Origin: Bdellovibrionia bacterium | GTDB taxonomy: Bacteria; Bdellovibrionota; Bdellovibrionia; Bdellovibrionales; JAGQZY01 | Assembly: GCA_030424715.1 (NCBI GenBank) | Contig: JAUHWH010000002.1 | Span: 1-64,000 of the forward strand | Length of the DNA stretch: 64,000 nt | Reading direction: 5' to 3' | Shown here: piece after piece, positions 19,152 to 58,270 of the stretch | Layout of the letters: the number at the start of each line of letters is the position of its first letter | Position numbering within the stretch: the stretch's first letter is position 1 | Notes under the pieces: model-generated | The model's input: the letters and a program-made list of their open reading frames with translations, nothing else | What the model was told of the DNA's origin: nothing | The model's database searches: none | Position numbers and translations under genes: made by a program

Positions 19152-19802
19152 CTACATTCCTCCTCCAGGATTTAGGCTGTGCCTTCTAAACCAAGATCTC
19201 GCTGCCATTTTTCTTATATTGTTAACCTTAAATCTAAGTGTGCATTTGCCCAACCTCTGCCCACAAAGGCATGGACATGGTTTTTTGTTAGCTTCTCTTT
19301 TTTTCATACTCAATAGATGCAAAAGGGATAATACTTGTTTTTTTGTTTTAAGATTAAAAAGTGATTGGTAATCATCAACTATGCCAGGCTCCCCATGATC
19401 CAATTCTCCACTAATAAAACCATCTCCTCGCTGTATTTGTCGGGTAATTGTATAAAGAAAAGGTGTTAGGCAATTCTTAGCAAAACCCAACAGCGTAGGG
19501 TTTATATTCAACTGTTTTAAAACCCTTATCGGTGAACCCAGACAAAGAGAGCCATCGTAATTAGTGTGATGTTTACCATCTCTTGGTATCTCTTCTTTTA
19601 ACTCCCAAACTTTTGGTAATTCACGAGGAAAATTCAAGGGAATGAATATTTCCACGTAATAGAAATGCTTTATCTCTACACCGTCCGGTGCTTGGCAATG
19701 AAAATCAAAGTGACCTCTGTATGTAACACAACCATTTTTGAACGGACCAGGAGACATTCCAGCATTCTCATCAAGAAAGTCTGAATCATTGATTTTAGGC
19801 AA
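19152..19802 (-). CDS. CBASS E2-like conjugating protein (short type II)
   Basis: The protein has about 216 residues. The central region resembles a ubiquitin-conjugating E2 fold, with the catalytic segment HHTNYDGSLCLGSP, where the Cys is the likely active site. The C terminus adds a Cys-rich segment (CPCLCGQRLGKC) that may bind zinc. In type II CBASS, E2-type proteins conjugate or prime the CD-NTase. No E1 or JAB gene is nearby, so this is the short E2-only form. I prefer a TTG start at 19802, one base after the CD-NTase stop with AAAAAGGG before it. A longer TTG start at 19844 would overlap that gene by 41 bp. Confidence 0.75.
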   Translation of the reverse strand: MPKINDSDFLDENAGMSPGPFKNGCVTYRGHFDFHCQAPDGVEIKHFYYVEIFIPLNFPRELPKVWELKEEIPRDGKHHTNYDGSLCLGSPIRVLKQLNINPTLLGFAKNCLTPFLYTITRQIQRGDGFISGELDHGEPGIVDDYQSLFNLKTKKQVLSLLHLLSMKKREANKKPCPCLCGQRLGKCTLRFKVNNIRKMAARSWFRRHSLNPGGGM

Positions 19803-19803
19803 C

Positions 19804-20991
19804 TTATCCCTTTTTATCTGACCATGGAGGTGCAGGCTTATCAATTACTTGAACATTCTGTACTGATGAAACAACAGGTAGATTGAGGCTTTTAGAAAGA
19901 TCATTTTCATCTAGTTGAACTACAAATTTCCTACCCGTATGGGTAGCAATATCACCAGCATTGGATGAGGAAAATAAATAATTAAAATCTCGCTGAGCCT
20001 GGTCAAGCCACCTCCAAAACCACTCCTCAAGTTTTAACTTTTGCCCCTCAATTGTAGGCCACTTATCTGAAAAATCCTCTTCAGGGTTCACAGGATTAGC
20101 TATTCTGGGAGAACTTGAGCTAATAAACTTTCCCATATTCACTAAAACATTAGACAGGGCTGACTCTAAATCAGACTCTCCAGAATAAGCTTTTGCCGCT
20201 AGCGTGGTGATGATTATAGATATCGGCTTAGATTCATCGTTGCCCTGAAACATTTGGTCTCGGTGTCGCTTTAGTAACTGGACTGCCTTCTGTAATGGAG
20301 CCCTTTTCTTGAAAAGTGGGATTTTGTCTACTCTAGCTTTCTCTAAGACATCTACTCTGATTCCAGTATCCAAACGCGATTCAAACCATTTGGCATATCC
20401 TTCTGGATTACTAACTTGCCAGTCATCACAAATTCTACTGTACGATCCATGCCGATTATCAGTTATATTTGAGGTTAAACTAGAAATCTCAGAGGACAAT
20501 ACATTCTGCACCCCACCCTTTTCTAAAGAATCAAATATTTTTACTCTTCGATTTTCGTCAGCAGGAATGCTTGGAACTATATCCATATGAAATTTTAGAT
20601 CGTCTTGATATTCTAGCCTCCAACAGCGTGGTTTTTCTTTTACACTTTCTTTAATACCTCTTGCGTCTTTGTAACTTTCCAACTCAACCTTAATCAAATC
20701 TTTAACTTGTTTTTGGGAGTGTGATAGTTTCGTGACTCTCTCCCGAAGCTTACAGCTGAGATCTAAATCATATTCCTCATTCCCATTCAAAGGACGGATT
20801 GCCGTTCCCAAACGAAAAGAACCCTGAGGGAATATATGTGGGTTTAAATCTTTGATAGTTGAATCTTGACGGCTAAACCAAGTTCCCAAATCATCATAAC
20901 GAGATTTTGCTTTATCGTAAGCAGACTCTGGAAGCTCAAGCTTATCGAGCAACTCATCTAATATAATATTTTTTTGATTTTTATTAAGCAT
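19804..20991 (-). CDS. CBASS CD-NTase (cGAS/DncV-like nucleotidyltransferase)
   Basis: The 395-residue enzyme has the nucleotidyltransferase signature: PQGSFRLGT (GS at about 57-58), then YDLDL with catalytic Asp75 and Asp77, and the third acidic residue in HMDIVP (Asp137). It should make a cyclic di- or trinucleotide when phage infection is sensed. The patatin effector next to it suggests a DncV-like clade and a cyclic dinucleotide such as cGAMP, but the product cannot be read from sequence. Its start overlaps the effector stop by 8 bp. Confidence 0.9.
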   Translation of the reverse strand: MLNKNQKNIILDELLDKLELPESAYDKAKSRYDDLGTWFSRQDSTIKDLNPHIFPQGSFRLGTAIRPLNGNEEYDLDLSCKLRERVTKLSHSQKQVKDLIKVELESYKDARGIKESVKEKPRCWRLEYQDDLKFHMDIVPSIPADENRRVKIFDSLEKGGVQNVLSSEISSLTSNITDNRHGSYSRICDDWQVSNPEGYAKWFESRLDTGIRVDVLEKARVDKIPLFKKRAPLQKAVQLLKRHRDQMFQGNDESKPISIIITTLAAKAYSGESDLESALSNVLVNMGKFISSSSPRIANPVNPEEDFSDKWPTIEGQKLKLEEWFWRWLDQAQRDFNYLFSSSNAGDIATHTGRKFVVQLDENDLSKSLNLPVVSSVQNVQVIDKPAPPWSDKKG

Positions 20992-21922
20992 TTATCCCTC
21001 CAGTGGAAAGAAAGTTTTTTATTAAATCACTTTTGTGTGTAAAATCCCTGTCAGCCCTCGAGATTAACGTGGGGACTTGGGTGCTATCATCCAATGTAAG
21101 CTCCATATCTGAATCAAAATTAACTCTAAGTAATTGATTTTCGGAAAGCATGAGCTTCATATAGTTTTGAATAGACTGGGCCTGTACTGACATTAAAAAG
21201 TTAATAAACTTTTTACCTTCCCAGCCATTTACAAATCCCCAGTTTTTTGATTCAACATCTGCATCATACGTCGATCTTGAGAGCCCTGTACCCAAAGATA
21301 GAACCTTCAATTGGCAAATTTCCTTATTCAATCTATATTGAGCATCTATTACCGCCGCAAGTGATGGGTTGTTTGCCCACAGACCTCCATCTGCCAATGA
21401 GTAAGCTCCCACCTTTGTTGGATCAAAATATGTTGGTGCGCTACACGAAGCAAGAACTGCATCTCTTACCCTGACATCACTATCTCTAGTGAAAGAACTT
21501 GAATAATTTGATTTAAATACATGAACACCGCCATGAACAATATCAGTAGCAGGCAGGATCAATGGAGAAGCTATTTCTCCGAGCCGTAAATCTTTAAAAA
21601 CATTTTCTAAAACGCCAGACAAATATCTTTTTTCATAAAGACTATGAAGTCCAGGCTTAACTTTCTTTGGATACCAAGAACCTTTCGGAGAAAAAATTTT
21701 TTCTCCATGCTCCTTATACATTCCCATAATAAGTTTGGGAGGTTTGCCGCAGGCTAAACCCGCTGCTATTATTGCCCCCGTACTTGTTCCGGCGTACATA
21801 TCAAAATATGTTGCTGGTTCGATCCCCAATCTTTCACTAATACACGATAATATGTGGGCTGGATAAACTCCGCGAATACCGCCACCATCGATACTTAAAA
21901 TTTTAAACTGATGGTCTTCCAT
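20984..21922 (-). CDS. capV: CBASS effector, patatin-like phospholipase CapV
   Basis: The 312-residue patatin phospholipase has an oxyanion-hole GGGIRG at 13-18, a nucleophile elbow GTSTG with Ser47, and the catalytic dyad Asp178 in ADGGLWANNPS. In CBASS, binding of the cyclic nucleotide activates membrane phospholipid degradation and the infected cell dies. It is the first gene of a three-gene operon and is transcribed away from the XRE regulator at 22187. The roughly 260-bp divergent gap holds palindromes that may control both. Confidence 0.9.
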   Translation of the reverse strand: MEDHQFKILSIDGGGIRGVYPAHILSCISERLGIEPATYFDMYAGTSTGAIIAAGLACGKPPKLIMGMYKEHGEKIFSPKGSWYPKKVKPGLHSLYEKRYLSGVLENVFKDLRLGEIASPLILPATDIVHGGVHVFKSNYSSSFTRDSDVRVRDAVLASCSAPTYFDPTKVGAYSLADGGLWANNPSLAAVIDAQYRLNKEICQLKVLSLGTGLSRSTYDADVESKNWGFVNGWEGKKFINFLMSVQAQSIQNYMKLMLSENQLLRVNFDSDMELTLDDSTQVPTLISRADRDFTHKSDLIKNFLSTGGINA

Positions 21923-22610: not shown

Positions 22611-23726
22611 TTAAATTTCAACTGAACCTAAAATATTTTCTATTTTAGCTCGCATAGAGCAGTAATTCTCACTTCCATTGATCTCGCACTCCTCACCTGC
22701 AATGTTATGCAGAAGATTCAAACAAGAATCACTCAGATCTAATAATCGTCCTTCCGACTCATAGACTTCTAATATGCAAGTTCTAGCTGCATCGGGCTTA
22801 CCTGGATCATGTCCCCCACCGGCTCGATCTTCATCATCTTTAGAGTTTCTTCCGCCGGGATCATGCCCTCCACCCGCTTGCACTTCAAATGAAGAACTCC
22901 ATACTTTGGCCATTAATCGTGGTTCAGAGAAAGTAATCATATTGCCGGGATCATTGCCCCCACCCGCAGCGAGAACGTCTCTGCTTGTTAACATTCTATC
23001 TATAAGATCATCGACCTGGATCGGTGCAATATTGGTCATTCTCATTATTGCAGGACCACCAGGGTCATTTCCAGCCATCGCTTGTGGTGCAGGCAGTGAA
23101 AACAAGAGTACAGCAAAAAGCATCCCAAGGATCATGTCGTAAAACTTGAGTCTTCTAAATTTCAATCCATTGACCTTACCGTTTCTAGAGTTTTCATTTG
23201 AAAATTGCTTTGCCTTATATTTAATTGCTGTAAACATATCCTTTAGTTCCTGAGTTTGCTCTTGTGTGAAAAATGAATCAATAGAAAAATATGAACGAGT
23301 GGCCCAATAGTCTTTTTGACCTGTGAACTCTTTCATAAGCTCAAAGACCTTTGCGTCCTTTTTTGCCTCAAGGTCAGCATCATATTTGTAATCAGAATAA
23401 TTGATATAATTGTCGGGGTAATTTGAATAATATCTCCCTTCATTATTGATGTGAACTAAACCACACTCAACATATCTCTTAAGAACAGAGTGAGCCTTTT
23501 TGGGTGACGGCTCGGGGAATCTTCTTTTGATTTCTCCAAGCGTTAAAGCCTCGACTCTTGTTGCATAGAACAGCATGAGTGAATATTCGTCGGCATGAAT
23601 TTCTTCGATTTGTTCAGGCGACAGCCTGATGCTCGGAAGGTCTTTTAAAACCTTTTTTTCTTTCGCGAAGTCTGCCCTTGAGCCAAAGCTGCTTCCAGCT
23701 TCCTTTACTACTCCTTGAGTTTCCAT
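22611..23726 (-). CDS. Single-pass membrane protein with four AGGGxDPG-type repeats
   Basis: This 371-residue protein has an N-terminal part (residues about 35-175) that resembles the winged-helix/DUF4423 portion of the TIGR02147 family common in Fibrobacter and Bdellovibrio relatives. One membrane segment (about 198-216) ends in a signal-peptidase-like PAPQAMA. Beyond it are four copies of a short motif: AGNDPGG at 218, AGGGNDPG at 254, AGGGHDPG at 284 and AGGGHDPG at 302. A C-terminal region with four cysteines (317, 335, 347, 356) follows. The layout is like an anti-sigma or one-component membrane sensor, or a precursor of repeated extracellular peptides. It lies 23 bp after an XRE regulator gene on the same strand. 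Confidence 0.7.
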   Translation of the reverse strand: METQGVVKEAGSSFGSRADFAKEKKVLKDLPSIRLSPEQIEEIHADEYSLMLFYATRVEALTLGEIKRRFPEPSPKKAHSVLKRYVECGLVHINNEGRYYSNYPDNYINYSDYKYDADLEAKKDAKVFELMKEFTGQKDYWATRSYFSIDSFFTQEQTQELKDMFTAIKYKAKQFSNENSRNGKVNGLKFRRLKFYDMILGMLFAVLLFSLPAPQAMAGNDPGGPAIMRMTNIAPIQVDDLIDRMLTSRDVLAAGGGNDPGNMITFSEPRLMAKVWSSSFEVQAGGGHDPGGRNSKDDEDRAGGGHDPGKPDAARTCILEVYESEGRLLDLSDSCLNLLHNIAGEECEINGSENYCSMRAKIENILGSVEI

Positions 23727-23749
23727 TATCTCCCCCTTTAATTGGTCTA

Positions 23750-24196
23750 TTACTTTCTTATCCTAATCCTATCTGCATACTGACTGCGCGGCCTTTGATC
23801 GGATGATGACAAACTAGAAAGAGAGGCAACAAGTTCCTGCAAATGTTCTTTTTTTACTTTACTGACATCTTTGGCTGCAAAATAAACCTGAGCCTCCAAT
23901 GTTTTCATTAACCGTTGATAATCATCAAAAGGTATTTCCCTTAGTGCTTCAATCACCTTTACTTCCTCAGAATAGACAAAGGAAGGATCATTCGATGAAA
24001 ATACATTAAGGTTTACGCCCAAGCTTTGAGAAATTCGTATCAGTTCACTAGCAGTTGCTTCACGCTTACCATTTTCTATTTTTGAAATAGTTGAGCGTGG
24101 AAGCTCAGCCATTACATCAAGCTCTGCTTGAGTTATGGATTTAGCCATCCTTAATGTTTTTAGCTTTTTTGCGATTCCCAAAGCATTTTTCTTCAT
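23750..24196 (-). CDS. XRE-family transcriptional regulator
   Basis: The protein has 148 residues. An HTH_3 domain occupies about 12-66 (KTLRMAKSITQAELDVMAELPRSTISKIENGK shows the helix-turn-helix), followed by a helical region and a basic C-terminal tail (RPRSQYADRIRIRK). It is divergent from the 24312 gene that leads into the conjugation operon and is followed after 23 bp by the repeat-bearing membrane protein. It is a good candidate for the master repressor of ICE transfer, by position only. Confidence 0.85.
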   Translation of the reverse strand: MKKNALGIAKKLKTLRMAKSITQAELDVMAELPRSTISKIENGKREATASELIRISQSLGVNLNVFSSNDPSFVYSEEVKVIEALREIPFDDYQRLMKTLEAQVYFAAKDVSKVKKEHLQELVASLSSLSSSDQRPRSQYADRIRIRK

Positions 24197-44750: not shown

Positions 44751-45851
44751 ATGGCAATCAATTTAAAAGAAATTAATGGAAAGAAATTCTATGAGGTCTA
44801 CGTTGGCGGATTCGACGCTCGTGGAGTGAGAGTTCAACGAAAAAGACGTAAAATCGAAAGTCTTACAAAGGCTAAGAAAGTCGAGTTTGAACTTAAACGA
44901 GAGTTGGCGAAACTCAAAGAAGAACGAGTTCCATTTCGTTTCGGTGAATGGTTCGATCATTGTATGAAACAAATGAGGATCGATAAAAGAGCCTCAACAG
45001 TTCTCAATTACGAATCCCAAATCAACAAATGGGTCATTCCACATTGGAATGATATCGAAATTAGAGACATTACTCGTTCAGATGTTCATGAATTGATTTT
45101 CGTAAAATGTGCTGCAATTAAAACTGAAAACAACCGCAAAACAGTTCTGAAGCTTATCAGAAGAATTTTTGCGCTTGCTGTAGAAGAAGGTGAACTTGAT
45201 AGAAACCCATGTGCAGGAATCCAGGTTAAGGCTCCCGAGGTAGAACAAAGTGTTCTTACAGCTAGTGAGGTAAAAACCTTCCTGTACCAAGCTGCCATTA
45301 CAAAACACCGATTTTATCCAGTTTGGTCTATGGCCTTAATGACTGGAATGAGATCTGGTGAGTTGTACGCACTCAGGTGGTCCGATATTGATTTAGATAG
45401 CAGGATCATTCGAGTGGCAAGGCAGTGGACTTCTAAAGCTGGCTACGGTCCTACCAAGACTATGAGAACTAGGAATGTACCGATCTCCGACCCGCTTTTG
45501 ACTTTCCTTAAAAAGTTGAAACTAGAAAGGGGGCACGAAGAGCGAGTGCTTCCAAAACTCAGGGATTGGTCCAATGGGGAACAAGCTCGAATAACACGCG
45601 AGTTCTGCCAGACTATAGGCGTCACTGAGGTTAAGTTTCATGATCTTAGAGCAACTTTTATCACCAATTTGTTGGCCCGTGGCGAGGCTCTAGCAACCGT
45701 CATGTCCATAGTTGGTCATTATCAACTAAAGACCACTAACGGCTATTTAAGAAAGGCTGGAGTGGACGTTATGGGTGGTACAGACAAGCTGGGATACGCT
45801 CCACCAGAGATCAATGAAGCTCAAGTTTTACAACTGAAAAGACAGGACTGA
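44751..45851 (+). CDS. int: Tyrosine-recombinase ICE integrase
   Basis: The integrase has 366 residues. An N-terminal arm/SAM-like domain is followed by a catalytic domain with Arg201 (TGMRSGELYALRW), Lys236 (PTKTMRTRNVPI), His297 and Arg300 (HDLRATF), His323 (VGHYQLKTT) and the nucleophile Tyr332 (NGYL). All six catalytic residues are present, so it should be active. Its stop is 69 bp from attR, the usual place for an integrase that uses a tRNA 3' end. Confidence 0.95.
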   Translation: MAINLKEINGKKFYEVYVGGFDARGVRVQRKRRKIESLTKAKKVEFELKRELAKLKEERVPFRFGEWFDHCMKQMRIDKRASTVLNYESQINKWVIPHWNDIEIRDITRSDVHELIFVKCAAIKTENNRKTVLKLIRRIFALAVEEGELDRNPCAGIQVKAPEVEQSVLTASEVKTFLYQAAITKHRFYPVWSMALMTGMRSGELYALRWSDIDLDSRIIRVARQWTSKAGYGPTKTMRTRNVPISDPLLTFLKKLKLERGHEERVLPKLRDWSNGEQARITREFCQTIGVTEVKFHDLRATFITNLLARGEALATVMSIVGHYQLKTTNGYLRKAGVDVMGGTDKLGYAPPEINEAQVLQLKRQD

Positions 45852-51830: not shown

Positions 51831-52745
51831 TCATAATGTCGCCTTTACGTCTTCAACAATTCGCTCCCCCAATTTGGTTAGCTGAATGCTGCTCAACGCA
51901 TTTACCCCAACTATTAGACTTGAATTTGTTTGTTCAAATCGCTGTTCAGTATAAATTCGCTCTTTTGCACTATTAAAGCGATAACTTTCTATTAGCTTTT
52001 TGTACATTTCATTCATATAAACCAGAGCGACAACAGCATGAAATGAAGCTATCGCAGGTCTTTCTGTTTTTCTCACACCTGAGTATATCTTTTTAGAGAA
52101 CGATTCTTCGGAGATAGGGACCATACCGAGTTGCTGAGCAAACAGCACTTGGTGGCCGACCTCATGTACAAATGCAATCGCCAAATCAATCACAGGAAAC
52201 GGCCCCTTATACATGCCGGTGAAAATAGATCCCAGTAAGTTATAATCACTGAAACCCGCTTCGGTACGAGAATCTCCAACACTACCTTTTAGAGGAACGA
52301 TCTCATAGAGAGCAGACTTTAACATATCACTGATCCAACCCCCGTTGTATTCTATTAAAGACAGCGCAGAACGAAACTCATCCAAAGACGAAGAACCTTC
52401 TTTTAGCATTTCGCAATAGATTGAGTGGGCATTTTTTTTTGGGTCTAGTAATCCTAAATCTGCAGCATTGGTATAAAGCTCCTCCTGAAGTCGAAGATAT
52501 TCGGGATCAACCACAATGAGGCGATCAGACTTTTGTGCTTGTATTGCATGGACGAGCCGCACCACCTCTTCATCGAAAAATTTACCTGAGCTGAATATCG
52601 GGTGGAAGCTGGGAGCCCATTCGCCAAAACGGGCTTCGAGAGCCTGCTTTCTGAGCGCTTTAAAGGTGGATAGTATTACATCGACTTTTTTTACAGATTG
52701 CGGCCCGGTAATCCAACCGGTCAATGTCTTTTCCCGAATAGGCAA
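51831..52745 (-). CDS. HExxH-motif protein resembling RiPP-associated HExxH enzymes
   Basis: This soluble 304-residue protein has a zinc/iron-type motif HEVGH at 194-198 in DLAIAFVHEVGHQVLFAQQLG. About 40 residues later comes KTERPAIASFHAVVALVYMNEMY, with Arg229 and His236. HExxH followed at this distance by an R-P...H block is the pattern of the peptide-modification HEXXH domain (TIGR04267; some members are alpha-ketoglutarate-dependent peptide hydroxylases). No signal peptide is seen, so it works in the cytoplasm. It is the last gene of a cluster with a histidine kinase, two solute-binding lipoproteins and a small exported protein 7 bp upstream. A plain metallopeptidase is the alternative. 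Confidence 0.55.
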   Translation of the reverse strand: MPIREKTLTGWITGPQSVKKVDVILSTFKALRKQALEARFGEWAPSFHPIFSSGKFFDEEVVRLVHAIQAQKSDRLIVVDPEYLRLQEELYTNAADLGLLDPKKNAHSIYCEMLKEGSSSLDEFRSALSLIEYNGGWISDMLKSALYEIVPLKGSVGDSRTEAGFSDYNLLGSIFTGMYKGPFPVIDLAIAFVHEVGHQVLFAQQLGMVPISEESFSKKIYSGVRKTERPAIASFHAVVALVYMNEMYKKLIESYRFNSAKERIYTEQRFEQTNSSLIVGVNALSSIQLTKLGERIVEDVKATL

Positions 52746-52752
52746 ATGTTTG

Positions 52753-53070
52753 CTACCTTCTTTTTTTTGGAGGCTTTGTAAATGTCATATTTTCCATAAG
52801 GAGACTATCGCAGTATTCAATCGGACTGTCAGAGACTTGTGAAATCAACTCCGAAAGTAATCGAAAATCATATATCTCTTGAGCGCTCATTTCTTCCAGG
52901 TCTGATAATTTAATTAAACTCGCGCACACGTCTCTCTCAGCAGAGATCCAGCGCTGAATCGCACTATCCACACTATCAGAGGGATTCTCAGAATCTACTT
53001 TCCCAAAAACTGAACCTATACCGCCAAAGGTTGCCGCAATCCCAGAAACTATAAGCATTAAATGTCTCAT
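52753..53070 (-). CDS. Small exported protein, possible substrate of the HExxH protein
   Basis: The protein has 105 residues, starting at ATG 53070 behind GGTGAGGTGG. The N terminus (MRHLMLIVSGIAATFGGIGSVFG) looks like a signal peptide or small membrane anchor. The remainder is helical and acidic with two Cys and a basic end (KPPKKRR). No family is known. It ends 7 bp before the HExxH gene, and a hairpin precedes its ribosome binding site. It could be a peptide precursor, a chaperone or an unrelated lipoprotein-like subunit. Confidence 0.6.
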   Translation of the reverse strand: MRHLMLIVSGIAATFGGIGSVFGKVDSENPSDSVDSAIQRWISAERDVCASLIKLSDLEEMSAQEIYDFRLLSELISQVSDSPIEYCDSLLMENMTFTKPPKKRR

Positions 53071-53080
53071 TACCACCTCA

Positions 53081-53101
53081 CCGCTAATTTTGAGTTAGCG
53101 G
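53081..53101 (-). promoter_or_regulatory. Perfect inverted repeat before small exported-protein gene
   Basis: CCGCTAA and TTAGCGG form a 7-bp perfect stem with a 7-base loop, 11 bases before the ATG at 53070 and next to its ribosome binding site. No U-run follows, so it is more likely an operator or an RNA element uncoupling the two distal genes from the transporter genes than a terminator. Confidence 0.45.
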
Positions 53102-53173
53102 ATAACAGACCCGGAGTCAAATAAGCGAGTAAATTCAATTCTAATTACCGAAATCAATGAAAATAATATATAC

Positions 53174-54700
53174 TTAGCGCAAAAGAACCTTAGTAAAATC
53201 AATAGTATAGGCGAGCCCCCTGGTCGGCTTATAATGGAGCCTATTGCTCAGTGCTACCACCTTGTAGCCCTGAGCGATGGGAATCTGGATATAGCCTTTC
53301 TTCATCATATTTAGGATGCGCCTAACACCAGTAGCCACTTTGTTAGCCCCATCATAGGCTTTAACTTCTTCAAATAGACCCTTGATTTGACTAATGTCAG
53401 CCGGGAGGTGTGCTTTTCTGTGGGGCGACTCAAGGTTTATGCCAAGAGGTAGCAGTGGATCTGAATAATCCAAGCCCATTGCATAGACAAAGATTCCGAC
53501 GTTTTCGGGGCCCAACCCGTGCTCCATTGTGGGAGAAAAGTTTACTTTCACCCCAATTTTCAGCAGTTGCTTTCTCACAGTTTCAACATAGTCTGGATTT
53601 CTCAAGCCCTTTGGGCCATGAAACCAACCCTCTAATTCAACATCGCCAAACGAAGCTTCAATGATCTTTTTCGCTGCCACAGGATCAAATTCAAACTTCT
53701 CCACAGTGCTCCCCAAAGAACGGGAGGTTATAAGTTGATGAGAGGGTCGAAATTTTTTATAATCCCGGCAAATCTCGATTCTTTCTATTGCAAGAGAAAT
53801 CGCTTTACGAAATTCGACTTTTTTAGCAAACTCATTTTTGAAATTGAAGTCCAAATTGAGTATCGACGTGGGTAGCGACGACACGAGTATAGTATATCTA
53901 TCGTTATCGAAGAACGAGCGAGCAGAAGTGAACGCAGCAATATCAGGCTTATTGTCAAGAGGATCACCGGTTTCAATGAATTTAATACGAACGGGACACG
54001 GGTTATCTGGGTTGCACTGCGATTTATCTACCTTCTCAATATCCACAATAACTCTTTTTTCATCAAAACGAACCACTCTGTAGGGCCCTAATCCAACTGG
54101 AAATCTCCTATAAGAAAACAAGTCATTCTTGAAAGACTTTCTCGGACTAATCGGAGGTACAGAGTTAGCTAAGGAGTATAAAAACTGAGGATTGCTTTTC
54201 TTGAGTTTTATATAAAAATTCCCAATCTTGTCGTATGTGATTCCACTCACAATTCCCGGAAAAAACTTCTGCCCAACCTGCAGCTTGTCGACACCAACAA
54301 TGTTCCCAAAGATCGGTCTTCGAACAATTTTCTTTTCCGTAAGAAAAAGCTTTGCGATCGCAAACTCGATATCTTCGGGCTGAATTTTTTCACCATCATG
54401 GTATCGTAATGTGGGGTCATACTTAAAGTGATAGGATGAAGTCGAAGCGTTCCAGTTGTAGTCACTAAATAGTCCTGGGAGCAGGCTCATATCTTCATCA
54501 TAGCTAAGCAAAAAACCAAAAACTGCTGACGAAAATGCAAGCTGAGAATCTATTGAGGCTTCGGGAAGCCAAGGTAACACCCCAAGATTACTCGTTTGGA
54601 CTACGATAGATCGTGAATAATGCTCTACTCGATTACTGCGGTGGCAATTCACCAAGAATAGAGAGCCACACAAAAACAGAACCGACCACTGCATTTTCAT
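53174..54700 (-). CDS. Family-5 solute-binding lipoprotein (peptide type)
   Basis: The protein has 508 residues with lipobox FLVNC. Family features of OppA/DppA-like binding proteins are visible: LPGLFSDYNW, RYHDGEKIQPEDIEFAI near 110, and a late VRKQLLKIGVKVNF segment. It begins within the stop of the paralogous gene upstream (ATGA overlap). No ABC permease or ATPase gene is nearby, so it may act as an extracytoplasmic sensor subunit or share a remote transporter. Confidence 0.8.
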   Translation of the reverse strand: MKMQWSVLFLCGSLFLVNCHRSNRVEHYSRSIVVQTSNLGVLPWLPEASIDSQLAFSSAVFGFLLSYDEDMSLLPGLFSDYNWNASTSSYHFKYDPTLRYHDGEKIQPEDIEFAIAKLFLTEKKIVRRPIFGNIVGVDKLQVGQKFFPGIVSGITYDKIGNFYIKLKKSNPQFLYSLANSVPPISPRKSFKNDLFSYRRFPVGLGPYRVVRFDEKRVIVDIEKVDKSQCNPDNPCPVRIKFIETGDPLDNKPDIAAFTSARSFFDNDRYTILVSSLPTSILNLDFNFKNEFAKKVEFRKAISLAIERIEICRDYKKFRPSHQLITSRSLGSTVEKFEFDPVAAKKIIEASFGDVELEGWFHGPKGLRNPDYVETVRKQLLKIGVKVNFSPTMEHGLGPENVGIFVYAMGLDYSDPLLPLGINLESPHRKAHLPADISQIKGLFEEVKAYDGANKVATGVRRILNMMKKGYIQIPIAQGYKVVALSNRLHYKPTRGLAYTIDFTKVLLR

Positions 54701-56253
54701 CGAAATTCTTCTTGTTCTATTTTTGAGAAATCAACCAACCCAAGCGGGTCCCCAATCCGCAAAGACCTGATTCTATTTTTTACATAAACAACGGGGAACG
54801 TCTTAAAAATCGGAACCTGGACAAAATTTTCAGCATGTAATCTAGCAAGCTGCCCCACAATAGTCTTCTTTTCGTCTGCGCTAGTGGCGCCCAGCGCAAC
54901 TTCGTACAAAGATTTCATCTTATTATCCAAGAAATCGTTATTCACCAATCCATCATTGGAACCAGAATACAAAAAGAAGGGGTATAATACGTCATGAAAA
55001 GGCAATATTTTCCCAACTGAAGTCATCACTACATCTGAATGAGTGCCACGCTTTACATCCACAAAGTCACTCGGCGAGAACTCGACATAAACGCCAACAT
55101 CGGACAATTGTTTTTCAACTAATTTGAAAATTTTAGGCTTCTTAGATTGCGAAGAACCAAAGTAGAGAGCCTTCAGCTTTCTCCTCTCATCGCTTACATC
55201 TTTAAAATGACGAGATACAATTTCCTTTGAGGCACGCTTGTCGAATCGTCTTCTGGGTTCATCTATTTTTATTTTTTTGTTTAAAATCAAACCATAGATA
55301 GACTCTCTATCATTAGCATCACCAACTATTTCTTCTCGATCAATGGCCAGACTTATGACTTCTCTAAAATTCGAATTTTTCCCCAACTCATTTTCAAAGT
55401 TGAAACTAATCAGTCTGATCGCATCGGGAACCAAACCAACCACTCTTCGACGACGAGAGCCCTCTTCAAAGATTGAAGAATCATAAGTTATATCTGGGTC
55501 AATTTTTTTTATATCTCCAGAGTTATAAAACCTAACTCGAAGCGGCGACTTTTTGAAATCTTCTCGATTTTTAAAAGAATCTTTCAACTCCAACATCGCC
55601 ATTACCTTTTCCTTGTCATAGCTAGAAACTTTATAAGGACCACTCCCTACCGGTATCCCCTTAAATGAAAAGAGATCCGGGCCAAAACTGTCTTGCGGAG
55701 CTATCGGATAAAAATAGTGCGCTAAATTATGAAGAAAATATGGATCAAACTTTTTAAGGTAAAATGTGATTTGACTATCCTTAATTTTAATACAATCGCA
55801 CATTCCGCTCTGAAACGGTGTCCCTTTTTTGATTTTCTCAACCCCTTTTAAGTTGAGCTGAAATGGAAACGGTGGATAGTCCTCGGGCGTTAGAAATACT
55901 TTTAAGTACAAAAATTCTACATCCTGTGGCTTTACAGGATTTTTAGCTCCGAACTTATATTCCCCATCAAATTGTACGGTATAGCTTTTAGCCGCGGGGT
56001 CAGAAGTCCAAGAAGAGAAAAGACCAGGAACTAACTCAGAGTCTTCGTTTAGATATACACCCTGGGTAAACACATTTCTATAAAACACACCTTTGGCGTA
56101 GATGGACGAACGTATGTCCCATGGCTTGTTACCAATATCCCCCGCAAAATATACAATTTCTCTATCGGAACTCTTCTTTGCTGAATTGCCCAAGAAACAG
56201 CCTCCAATAAACACAGCTATCAACAGTAAAAACAATTTCCTCATATGTAACAC
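54697..56253 (-). CDS. Family-5 solute-binding lipoprotein (peptide type), paralogue
   Basis: The protein has 518 residues with lipobox VFIGGC. It has the same plan as the downstream paralogue (VPGLFSSWTSD, KNPVKPQDVEFLYLKVFL, LVEKQLSDVGVYVEFSPSD). The translation may start at GTG 56253, immediately after the kinase stop, or at ATG 56244, which gives a normal lipoprotein signal. It probably binds a peptide and presents it to the kinase or a transporter. Confidence 0.8.
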   Translation of the reverse strand: MLHMRKLFLLLIAVFIGGCFLGNSAKKSSDREIVYFAGDIGNKPWDIRSSIYAKGVFYRNVFTQGVYLNEDSELVPGLFSSWTSDPAAKSYTVQFDGEYKFGAKNPVKPQDVEFLYLKVFLTPEDYPPFPFQLNLKGVEKIKKGTPFQSGMCDCIKIKDSQITFYLKKFDPYFLHNLAHYFYPIAPQDSFGPDLFSFKGIPVGSGPYKVSSYDKEKVMAMLELKDSFKNREDFKKSPLRVRFYNSGDIKKIDPDITYDSSIFEEGSRRRRVVGLVPDAIRLISFNFENELGKNSNFREVISLAIDREEIVGDANDRESIYGLILNKKIKIDEPRRRFDKRASKEIVSRHFKDVSDERRKLKALYFGSSQSKKPKIFKLVEKQLSDVGVYVEFSPSDFVDVKRGTHSDVVMTSVGKILPFHDVLYPFFLYSGSNDGLVNNDFLDNKMKSLYEVALGATSADEKKTIVGQLARLHAENFVQVPIFKTFPVVYVKNRIRSLRIGDPLGLVDFSKIEQEEFR

Positions 56254-57642
56254 TCACTTCCCTCGACGCAATTTTAAAATTACAGCATTTAGCTCTTGGC
56301 TACTACTGGGGCGAAGAGATATTGACCCACCATGCATTTCAAAAACTTCCGCTGCTTGAGTCAGTCCAGTCCCCATACCGTCGTCTTTACCAGATGTGAA
56401 ACCGTATTCGAAGACTTTTCTTTTTAACTCTTCTGGTATTCCTGGCCCATTGTCTTCTATAATCAATTCAACGACTTCTGAATCACCTGCGATATTAACA
56501 TGGATGACCGGCATTCTGGATGTCACGGCTTCAACCCCATTATTGATAATATTTGAGATCGCTCTAGCCAGCCTGCTTCTGTCAATTTCCAAGTCAATAT
56601 TCTCCTCCCCTGGGTGAAAATTGATTTCGATAGTAGGACCATACTCAGCCCGTTTTTCTTGAATTAGATTCTCAACGAACTCATTAAAATCGGTTTTTTC
56701 TCTCATTAGTTCGAAGGAGTTCAATTCTAGTTTACCAATCTTGAGGTCCGAAACAATACTTTGGATTCTTGCTGCAGACTTCTTAATCAAGAGGGTGGCC
56801 GCCTCTCGATTAACATCGATTCTCTCGACCGCTGCCTGAAGTGCCCCCAGAGGTGACTGAATGTCATGGTTGACCTGTCTTCCCAGGCGAACCAAGGCAT
56901 CTTGAACTTCAGCCTTTTTAATCTTCTCGTTTTGGGAATTTACTGTAGTCAGTAAACGGCTAATTTCAGTTATAAACCTATCGGTCTCCTGAAAGTGTCG
57001 CCCTTGACTGTAATTCTTGACCTGAAAGTCACCCATAGGATTTGCTATTTGTTCATCAAGGTCTTTGTAAAGATTCTCGACTGGCTCTGAAAAGAAGGAC
57101 GCGGTATCTTTCAATATTTTTTTCAGAAAGACAAAAATAATAATACTGAGAAATAGAGAGCTGAACGCGGCATATAGATAGAACAGATGGTTGATTCGGT
57201 AAGAATAGTAAAAGTTCCAGGAGGCCTGACTTTGATCATGTATTTTCATCGAACCTCGAACAGTTGTGGCCAGAGGGCTAAAAAAAATCCCTTCCTGCAG
57301 AAGATTTTCTCCATATTCAGGCGAGGGAGAAATGCCAATCCAATCATTTTGTCCTTCAGCCAAAAGGCCACAACTATGGACGGCCCCAGAACTAGCAAAG
57401 GCAGCTAGGTATTTAGTAATAAAAAAAAGGTCCCCTATTTTAATAGCATTTACGATGAACTCCGAGTCGATTTCGATTTTTTGCCCAATACTACGATGCT
57501 TTTGATTGATCTGCAGTGAAAACAGTCCCAGACTGGTTATCAAAAAAAGAAAGACGCTGATGATAAGGGAGACCCGGAAAGTTCTTTTAATAATTTCACT
57601 GTTGATTGAATTACTTGTTTGCAAGTTCACCTCAAAAACCAA
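56254..57642 (-). CDS. Sensor histidine kinase, orphan
   Basis: The kinase has 462 residues. Two membrane helices (about 22-45 and 152-175) frame a periplasmic sensor of about 105 residues. The kinase core has the H-box VNHDIQSPLGAL (His259), the N-box SNIINNGVEA near 363-372, G1 EDNGPGIP near 396-403 and G2 GMGTGLTQA near 422-430. All catalytic parts are intact. No response regulator gene is in the cluster. It heads an operon with two peptide-binding lipoproteins, which suggests ligand relay to its sensor domain. Confidence 0.9.
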   Translation of the reverse strand: MVFEVNLQTSNSINSEIIKRTFRVSLIISVFLFLITSLGLFSLQINQKHRSIGQKIEIDSEFIVNAIKIGDLFFITKYLAAFASSGAVHSCGLLAEGQNDWIGISPSPEYGENLLQEGIFFSPLATTVRGSMKIHDQSQASWNFYYSYRINHLFYLYAAFSSLFLSIIIFVFLKKILKDTASFFSEPVENLYKDLDEQIANPMGDFQVKNYSQGRHFQETDRFITEISRLLTTVNSQNEKIKKAEVQDALVRLGRQVNHDIQSPLGALQAAVERIDVNREAATLLIKKSAARIQSIVSDLKIGKLELNSFELMREKTDFNEFVENLIQEKRAEYGPTIEINFHPGEENIDLEIDRSRLARAISNIINNGVEAVTSRMPVIHVNIAGDSEVVELIIEDNGPGIPEELKRKVFEYGFTSGKDDGMGTGLTQAAEVFEMHGGSISLRPSSSQELNAVILKLRRGK

Positions 57643-58270
57643 ACCGAACGACGAGCTTAGCCACCGCAGACGCCTGGAGATTTTTTTCCCGTTGGAAGAT
57701 CGGAGGCGTAAACCAAAACTCTCATTTTTTTTAACCGTCTATCTCAAGTCATTCAACAAATTGCCATTTCTCAAAAAACTAGCTAAATTTACGAAATCGT
57801 TACTCCACTTATCACCCATTCAGTAGAATTTCTCTAGGTCGATTGTAAATTCAATAGGACTGTCCAAGGGATGATCGAAGAAATACATGGCATCAGTTTA
57901 GCGCCCAAGGGATGATCGAAGAAATACATGGCATCAGTTTAGCGCCCAAGGTATGACCTCACAGGGAACGAACTCTGCTCCAATCAATCATAAAAAAGCC
58001 TATCAAATCAATTGAACTTCGAAAGTCCTCTTTTTTGAACTTTCCAGAGTACAATGCACTGAATACGCCCTCAAATTTCTGAGGGCCCGGTAGCTCCACG
58101 GAGACACCCTGCTAGACGCTGGATTTACTAGGGCGAAGGCACTTGACTCGGAGGTAAAATAGATTGTCGGAAGAGACCAAAGTGTCTAAAAAACCTTCAG
58201 CTTTTTAGTAAATAGTACCTGGTTGGAGGCACTAATACTGTTCAAACCCGTGGCATGGTACAGGTGTTCC
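57643..58270. other. Long intergenic region and helicase leader (about 630 bp)
   Basis: This divergent gap lies between the kinase gene and the DEAD-box helicase gene. It holds a 41-bp tandem repeat (57864-57951), a small stem CCCTCA/TGAGGG at 58068-58085 and a further stem CTAAAAA/TTTTTAG at 58186-58208. The stretch 58080-58200 is GC-richer and could be a structured 5' leader, as is known for cold-regulated DEAD-box helicase mRNAs. No ORF with start signals was found. Confidence 0.4.
57864..57951. repeat. 41-bp tandem repeat, two copies plus a partial third
   Basis: The unit begins CCAAGGGATGATCGAAGAAA and runs 41 bases. Copy 1 is 57864-57904 and copy 2 is 57905-57945, apparently identical, followed by a partial CCAAGG at 57946-57951. 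It lies in a noncoding gap. Confidence 0.9.

Follow-up and report, generated by a model that had tools for sequence, protein, structure and literature searches.

Gene organisation of the window cluster

The window analysed here, a stretch of 64,000 nucleotides from a Bdellovibrionia bacterium (GenBank assembly GCA_030424715.1, contig JAUHWH010000002.1, positions 1 to 64,000), carries on its minus strand a cluster of five genes with relatives elsewhere in the phylum Bdellovibrionota, which is known for its predatory members. A first-pass annotation, made from the DNA letters, had described five tightly linked genes of a possible peptide sensing and modification system, and all five open reading frames (ORFs) are indeed present and intact, in the order sensor histidine kinase, substrate-binding protein (SBP) B, SBP-A, small exported protein and HExxH protein (Table 1). 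Three of the four gene junctions overlap or measure at most 8 bp, the two SBP genes overlapping by 4 bp, and ~97 bp separate SBP-A from the small gene. ORF and Pfam analysis showed neither a permease or ATPase gene nor a response regulator gene next to the cluster, in agreement with the description of two paralogous family-5 SBPs lacking transport partners. The kinase, which had been called an orphan, is one in the window copy but not in most relatives, where a regulator is present.

Table 1. Features of the window, with positions counted from its first nucleotide
Feature	Position	Strand	Details
Membrane sensor histidine kinase	56254..57642	-	462 aa, TTG start; first gene of the window copy; PF02518 (HATPase_c) E 6e-17
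SBP_bac_5 lipoprotein B (SBP-B)	54697..56253	-	518 aa; lipobox IGGC; PF00496 E 4e-26
SBP_bac_5 lipoprotein A (SBP-A)	53174..54700	-	508 aa; lipobox LVNC; PF00496 E 4e-24
Small exported protein, candidate pro-peptide	52753..53076	-	105 aa from ATG 53070; GAGGTGG directly upstream
Homologue of aKG-HExxH-type peptide beta-hydroxylase	51831..52745	-	304 aa; TIGR04267 41.7 bits
Divergent intergenic region upstream of the kinase, shared with DEAD-box helicase	57643..58222	-	41-bp tandem repeat; no sigma-54 site
Integrative conjugative element (ICE)	7838-46779 (about 7.8-46.8 kb)		transfer genes, integrase, metal-efflux cargo

The G+C content of the cluster (0.38-0.43) is the same as that of most of the window, the GC-rich exceptions being the helicase and the genes at 49-51 kb. 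The cluster is thus not AT-richer than its surroundings, as had been claimed, and composition fails as a sign of transfer; transfer itself is supported by other evidence given below. The window copy is an outlying subtype of the gene set: it has two SBPs, neither a response regulator nor a sigma-54 site, and it lies outside the neighbouring ICE. The tandem repeat upstream of the kinase gene (57864-57956) consists of 2.3 intergenic copies at 98%.

The HExxH protein is related to peptide hydroxylases

The HExxH protein had been proposed to be a peptide-modifying enzyme of the TIGR04267 type, and it scores just above the curated cut-off of 40 bits for this profile, whose current NCBI name is aKG-HExxH-type peptide beta-hydroxylase (aKG, alpha-ketoglutarate). 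All 21 system members tested match the profile as well (E <= 1e-3). The window protein has no signal peptide and displays the motifs HEVGH (194-198), YS (221-222), RP (229-230) and H236; in an alignment of 21 relatives S166, H194, E195, H198, R229, P230 and H236 are invariant. Searched against the PDB, the family profile found ChlH (8s5f, E 9e-17) and a radical SAM (rSAM)-HExxH protein (22nu, 1e-5), the best protease being myroilysin at E 0.3, and in the alignment to ChlH both the HExxH motif and the R-P...H block are kept. Furthermore, an AlphaFold model with a mean predicted local distance difference test (pLDDT) score of 84.9 matched in Foldseek the ChlB HExxH domain (8s5f, E 9e-11) and SjiH (22ob, 1e-6), with nothing else below 0.7. 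No peptidase family was matched in Pfam and no protease in Foldseek at E < 0.7. An ordinary zincin metallopeptidase was discarded on the grounds of sequence and fold, and membership of the aKG peptide-hydroxylase family is well supported by profile and model.

Characterised members of this family hydroxylate His, Asp, Phe, Gln or Pro of ribosomal peptides, and PflC/PosC are also capable of oxidative backbone cleavage (PMC12636437, PMC13060819). By homology, the window protein would catalyse an Fe(II)/aKG-dependent peptide hydroxylation with the small protein as its putative substrate.

A longer TIGR04267-like protein of 400-500 aa is common in the genomes searched of host family f12 and was set aside, both inspected examples (L108 8497-9732 and L109 8842-10086) lying among conserved housekeeping genes without SBP or kinase, an unusual setting for a presumed enzyme of ribosomally synthesised and post-translationally modified peptides (RiPPs). 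Another homologue without SBP or kinase (L098 8752-9864) has upstream of it a 70-aa ORF in which a LVDEVFGESRVNGVIIDI segment recurs, like a multi-core RiPP precursor.

Binding proteins and kinase

SBP-A is 30% identical to SBP-B. Both had been called lipoproteins; of the two, SBP-B alone has a clear lipobox (IGGC), the LVNC of SBP-A having an atypical residue at -1. SBP-B is related to the SBPs of other copies of the gene set (E 1e-24 to 1e-34), and the nearest solved chain to SBP-A is the peptide-binding protein 4oet. Permease and ATPase genes are absent beside the SBPs, both in the window (ORF and Pfam analysis) and in the ORF listing of the relatives, permeases elsewhere in the genome not having been searched. 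A nutrient importer of the Opp/Dpp ABC type was ruled out, there being no permease or ATPase at the loci; the SBPs are probably co-receptors because no permease adjoins them.

The kinase comprises an N-terminal transmembrane (TM) helix, a periplasmic alpha/beta domain resembling PAS/Cache, a second TM helix, a HisKA domain with QVNHDIQSP and a HATPase domain. Over nine aligned loci H259/D260 and the N and G boxes are invariant. Its structure model, of low confidence, places a PAS/Cache-like alpha/beta segment between the two TM helices and gives a cytosolic part like HK853. No cytoplasmic TPR peptide receptor was found in the operon, the membrane kinase standing in its place.

The gene set is conserved and moves as a unit

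Relatives were sought in 141 genomes of the order and 369 of the phylum. HExxH relatives occur in 22 of the former and 113 of the latter, many of these 113 carrying the separate 400-500 aa family rather than the system enzyme, and a class-level search yielded nothing beyond the order. That the genes stay together was confirmed: SBP_bac_5, HExxH and kinase genes occur jointly at 33 loci with complete flanks in at least nine families of the phylum, as counted by reading the neighbourhoods, other loci being degenerate or cut by contig ends. Two phylum loci (L059 and L098) have the HExxH gene without its partners. An NtrC-type regulator, consisting of a receiver and a sigma-54 activator domain, is present at 22 loci and a small exported protein at about 28.

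A second HExxH copy lies on the window's own contig, at ~410 kb, where regulator, HExxH protein, small protein, SBP, GNAT-like gene and kinase stand in a row. A third locus of the same genome (L011 489-5890) still has SBP and kinase intact, with the truncated remains of an HExxH gene close by on the opposite strand. The same-genus genome G001 has no copy of the gene set, hence the distribution is patchy; the genes flanking the window cluster were not recognisable there on synteny comparison.

The HExxH protein, SBP, kinase and regulator have correlated pairwise distances (Mantel r 0.77-0.90, a level reached in 0 of 5000 permutations), which indicates that the parts travel together, the correlation being partly due to shared host ancestry and the close relatives not being independent. 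On the HExxH tree the host-family labels are scattered, with 19 changes for a minimum of 9, and identities across families are, for example, 61% (L013 of f1 and L093 of f12) and 74% (L012 of f4 and L090 of f12). The window protein is at most 30% identical to any other member. Movement of the gene set across families as one unit, by horizontal transfer, is supported by this tree and by the linkage to ICEs described below; this part of the first-pass annotation stands, then, on grounds other than composition. A plasmid- or virus-borne system was also considered and rejected, tblastn against plasmids having found only two distant rhizobial HExxH proteins and a scan of viral contigs none. Outside Bdellovibrionota, where coverage was thin, one alphaproteobacterial metagenome-assembled genome has an HExxH relative without SBP or kinase.

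A divergent subtype (L017 6389-12814, L105 and L107) has one or more transporter-like genes between HExxH and kinase genes, in L017 of the major facilitator superfamily (MFS). These are possibly an export route for a peptide.

Small exported proteins

The small protein of the window has a hydrophobic N-terminal signal and ends in MTFTKPPKKRR; Pfam and TIGR-type profile searches gave no family match. Across the gene set the small proteins measure 60-170 aa and begin with a short hydrophobic stretch resembling a signal, and they matched no family, neither toxin-like nor of a recognised precursor. A small exported ORF lies beside the HExxH enzyme at most loci, the small gene usually adjoining the HExxH or the SBP gene. 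A single homologous small protein common to all loci is not supported, hhalign of the two largest subfamilies giving a probability of 1.4%.

Between closer relatives conservation is often, not always, highest over the last 25 residues: 23 of 25 are conserved at the C-terminal end between L014 and L092, against 65 of 113 in the middle, and 18 of 25 against 17 of 47 between L051 and L056. Many small proteins have a serine-phenylalanine block near the end (HSFA, HSFIR, ASFIAGH, HSFSM, KSFTVSK; compare MTFTKPPKKRR in the window). A universal C-terminal [ST]F core motif was rejected: it is seen in ~7 of 13 subfamilies against a background of 5%, and being post hoc it is a hint only. The small proteins of the f8/f10 group have instead of a short variable tail a conserved mature domain of ~75 residues.

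Predicted sigma-54 promoters in regulator-type operons

The regulator-type loci were searched for the sigma-54 -24/-12 element (TGGCAC-N5-TTGC, scored out of 10). Of 21 operons with the regulator or the small gene in first place, 18 have a site of at least 8/10 next to that leading gene; its distance upstream is as a rule 18-61 bp, and in a few the start given by the ORF caller lies slightly 5' of the site. Seven sites are perfect (10/10 at L012, L013, L014, L090, L091, L092 and L093). Random windows of the same loci reach a score of at least 8 in 5% and of 10 in 0.4%, and rpoN is present in all eight genomes tested. The position of these sites by the first gene suggests that the regulator-type system switches on its own operon, and autoregulation via the predicted promoters is probable. 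Sigma-54-like sites are also found ~150-210 bp upstream of leader genes beside transfer genes (L012, L090, L092 and L053). The same motif search found no site in the window copy.

Small SnoaL-like genes stand beside several regulator-type operons (L013 3386-3856, L048 5054-5497, L093 4900-5379 and L046 74-571), several of them with a sigma-54-like site of their own.

Linkage to conjugative elements

VirB4 (PF19044) and VirD4/TraG (PF12696) were located in 37 genomes that hold the system. Of 41 system loci, 16 have one of these genes within 20 kb, compared with 1.2 expected by random placement (Poisson-binomial 2e-15, a value inflated by close relatives among the linked loci and deflated by short contigs). 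At L055, L056 and L058 the operon stands directly before a sigma-like gene, TrbC/VirB2, VirB3-like, VirB4 and VirB5 genes. In the ICE of the window the order of the transfer genes is the same and their products are related (VirB4 60% and VirB5 66% identical), but at the corresponding upstream site a 371-aa protein with GGG[NH]DPG repeats is encoded next to an Xre regulator (22611-24196). It looks as if one regulatory module had been swapped for another between these sister elements, and the Xre and repeat-protein pair could be a different peptide or regulatory module. The HExxH cluster of the window is outside this ICE, yet 10 kb from its VirD4.

Each end of the window ICE carries a copy of a 244-aa membrane gene (91% over 769 bp). 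The element contains a tyrosine-type integrase (44751-45851) and transfer genes at 24.6-31 kb and 39.5-43 kb. Inside it, at 19152-21922, a DncV-like nucleotidyltransferase (PF21654), a patatin phospholipase and a third protein without Pfam match are encoded, likely a CBASS (cyclic oligonucleotide-based antiphage signalling system) defence operon.

A proposed autoinducing-peptide system and its alternatives

We lean towards reading the gene set as a conserved autoinducing-peptide system of Bdellovibrionota that controls transfer on many ICEs, and hold this to be somewhat probable. A small pro-peptide would be made and exported by Sec, as its gene position and signal-like N-terminus suggest, and before export the cytoplasmic Fe/aKG HExxH enzyme would hydroxylate it, probably near the C-terminus. 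The exported product is probably processed, and outside the cell the peptide or a C-terminal fragment of it would be bound by the family-5 SBP or SBPs, the loaded SBP then being read by the periplasmic domain of the adjacent kinase. In the complete subtype the kinase would phosphorylate the NtrC-type regulator, which would activate its own operon from the predicted sigma-54 promoter in a positive feedback. On ICEs, where linkage is observed, the regulator may also drive the transfer genes. The window copy, of a subtype with two SBPs and no regulator, probably passes its signal to a regulator encoded elsewhere; the one in the contig's second copy would be a candidate. The modify, capture and sense flow put forward in the first-pass annotation is thereby strengthened by the co-inheritance of the parts and by the sigma-54 sites of the relatives; the small protein as substrate, its modification and the ligands of SBP and kinase are still what we infer.

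Several observations weigh against this proposal. The small proteins split into several subfamilies that cannot be aligned with each other, and that of the window has no detectable sequence homology to the syntenic small exported proteins of the relatives. The [ST]F motif was picked after inspection and is missing in the f8/f10 group. At several loci without a regulator (L102, L104) a sigma-54 site and a small exported protein are both hard to make out, and some of the linked loci are close kin, so that the P value of the ICE linkage overstates their independence. For the window copy, which has no regulator or sigma-54 site and belongs to no ICE, both autoregulation and the control of transfer are extrapolations from relatives.

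It is conceivable, though in our judgement rather unlikely, that SBP and kinase sense outside peptides, from food or prey lysis, and that HExxH enzyme and small protein make a separate secreted product, such as a toxin, bacteriocin or adhesin, switched on by the kinase. SBP_bac_5 proteins are generally known to bind diverse peptides, the hosts are related to bacterial predators, and a regulator that probably drives an operon containing the small gene fits an induced effector as well as autoinduction. However, all parts co-vary and move as one unit, and the module heads ICE transfer operons, where sensing of other cells is the commoner logic. Moreover, the small proteins have no toxin-like family match, nor was a neighbouring immunity gene recognised. 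We think it quite improbable that the enzyme acts on the SBP, the kinase or some other target instead of the small protein, and that the small protein is a sensor accessory or inhibitor, as CpxP is for CpxA. Such accessory inhibitors are generally known beside sensor kinases, the f8/f10 group has the conserved ~75-residue mature domain and no short variable tail, and L102 and L104 do without a recognisable small protein. Against this stand the position of the small gene, usually beside the HExxH or SBP gene, the stronger conservation of the last 25 residues than of the middle in most closer pairs, and the characterised enzymes of the family, which all modify ribosomal precursor peptides (PMC12636437, PMC13060819).

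As for an ordinary zinc protease maturing the small protein, the HExxH motif itself and the backbone cleavage by PflC of the same family under some conditions (PMC12636437) would speak for it, but both sequence and fold agree with the aKG-hydroxylases and with no protease, the R-P...H block is conserved as in ChlH, and the membrane would separate an enzyme without signal peptide from a mature exported protein. We regard this explanation as very improbable.

Relation to known systems

The gene set shares its complete part list with none of agr, LuxP-LuxQ and Rap-Phr. With the aKG-HExxH RiPP clusters (ChlB/ChlH, BpmH, PflC/PosC and PesO) it has in common the enzyme family, the HExxH and R-P...H motifs, the fold and a small ORF nearby. 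Those clusters are biosynthetic, with rSAM, MNIO, transporter and GNAT genes, whereas here SBP, sensor kinase and sigma-54 regulator are found, no rSAM or MNIO was recognised, and the candidate precursor has a Sec-type signal.

The Gram-positive RRNPP systems that control conjugation (ICEBs1 RapI-PhrI and enterococcal sex-pheromone plasmids) resemble it in the exported pro-peptide, the OppA-type SBP, the linkage to conjugative elements and the proposed short C-terminal signal; in those systems Opp takes up the peptide and a TPR receptor in the cytoplasm reads it (PMC8055654, PMC10569065). Here, by contrast, the operon has no permease or TPR receptor but an adjacent membrane kinase and, in addition, an oxidising enzyme, and the hosts are Gram-negative.

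The agr system would be alike in overall logic, with its modified peptide, two-component readout and autoregulated operon. Its precursor and modifying parts are not homologous, a hydroxylase standing here in place of AgrB, with an SBP co-receptor and a sigma-54 regulator; a regulator that could complete an agr-like operon of kinase, regulator and precursor is present in 22 relatives, and the window copy has none. LuxP-LuxQ has a periplasmic SBP beside a kinase with a PAS/Cache-like periplasmic domain, but here the SBP is of the peptide-type family 5 and a ribosomal peptide candidate is encoded in the operon.

Literature searches of open-licence papers found no description of the gene set, as the first-pass annotation had supposed. 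Tentatively, and as something possible rather than probable, we propose that it is the first ribosomal, oxidatively modified peptide-pheromone system in Gram-negatives. A single operon that activates itself would comprise precursor, aKG-HExxH hydroxylase, OppA-type co-receptor, kinase and sigma-54 regulator; it would be borne on ICEs in Bdellovibrionota and time conjugation by sensing neighbour cells, with chromosomal offshoots that include the window copy. If true, RiPP-type peptide oxidation would be joined to Gram-negative cell-cell signalling, a link not found in the literature searched, and a role in signalling would be added to the natural-product biosynthesis known for the aKG-HExxH family. 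A sequence-based handle on the switching-on of conjugative elements in Bdellovibrionota would be gained as well.

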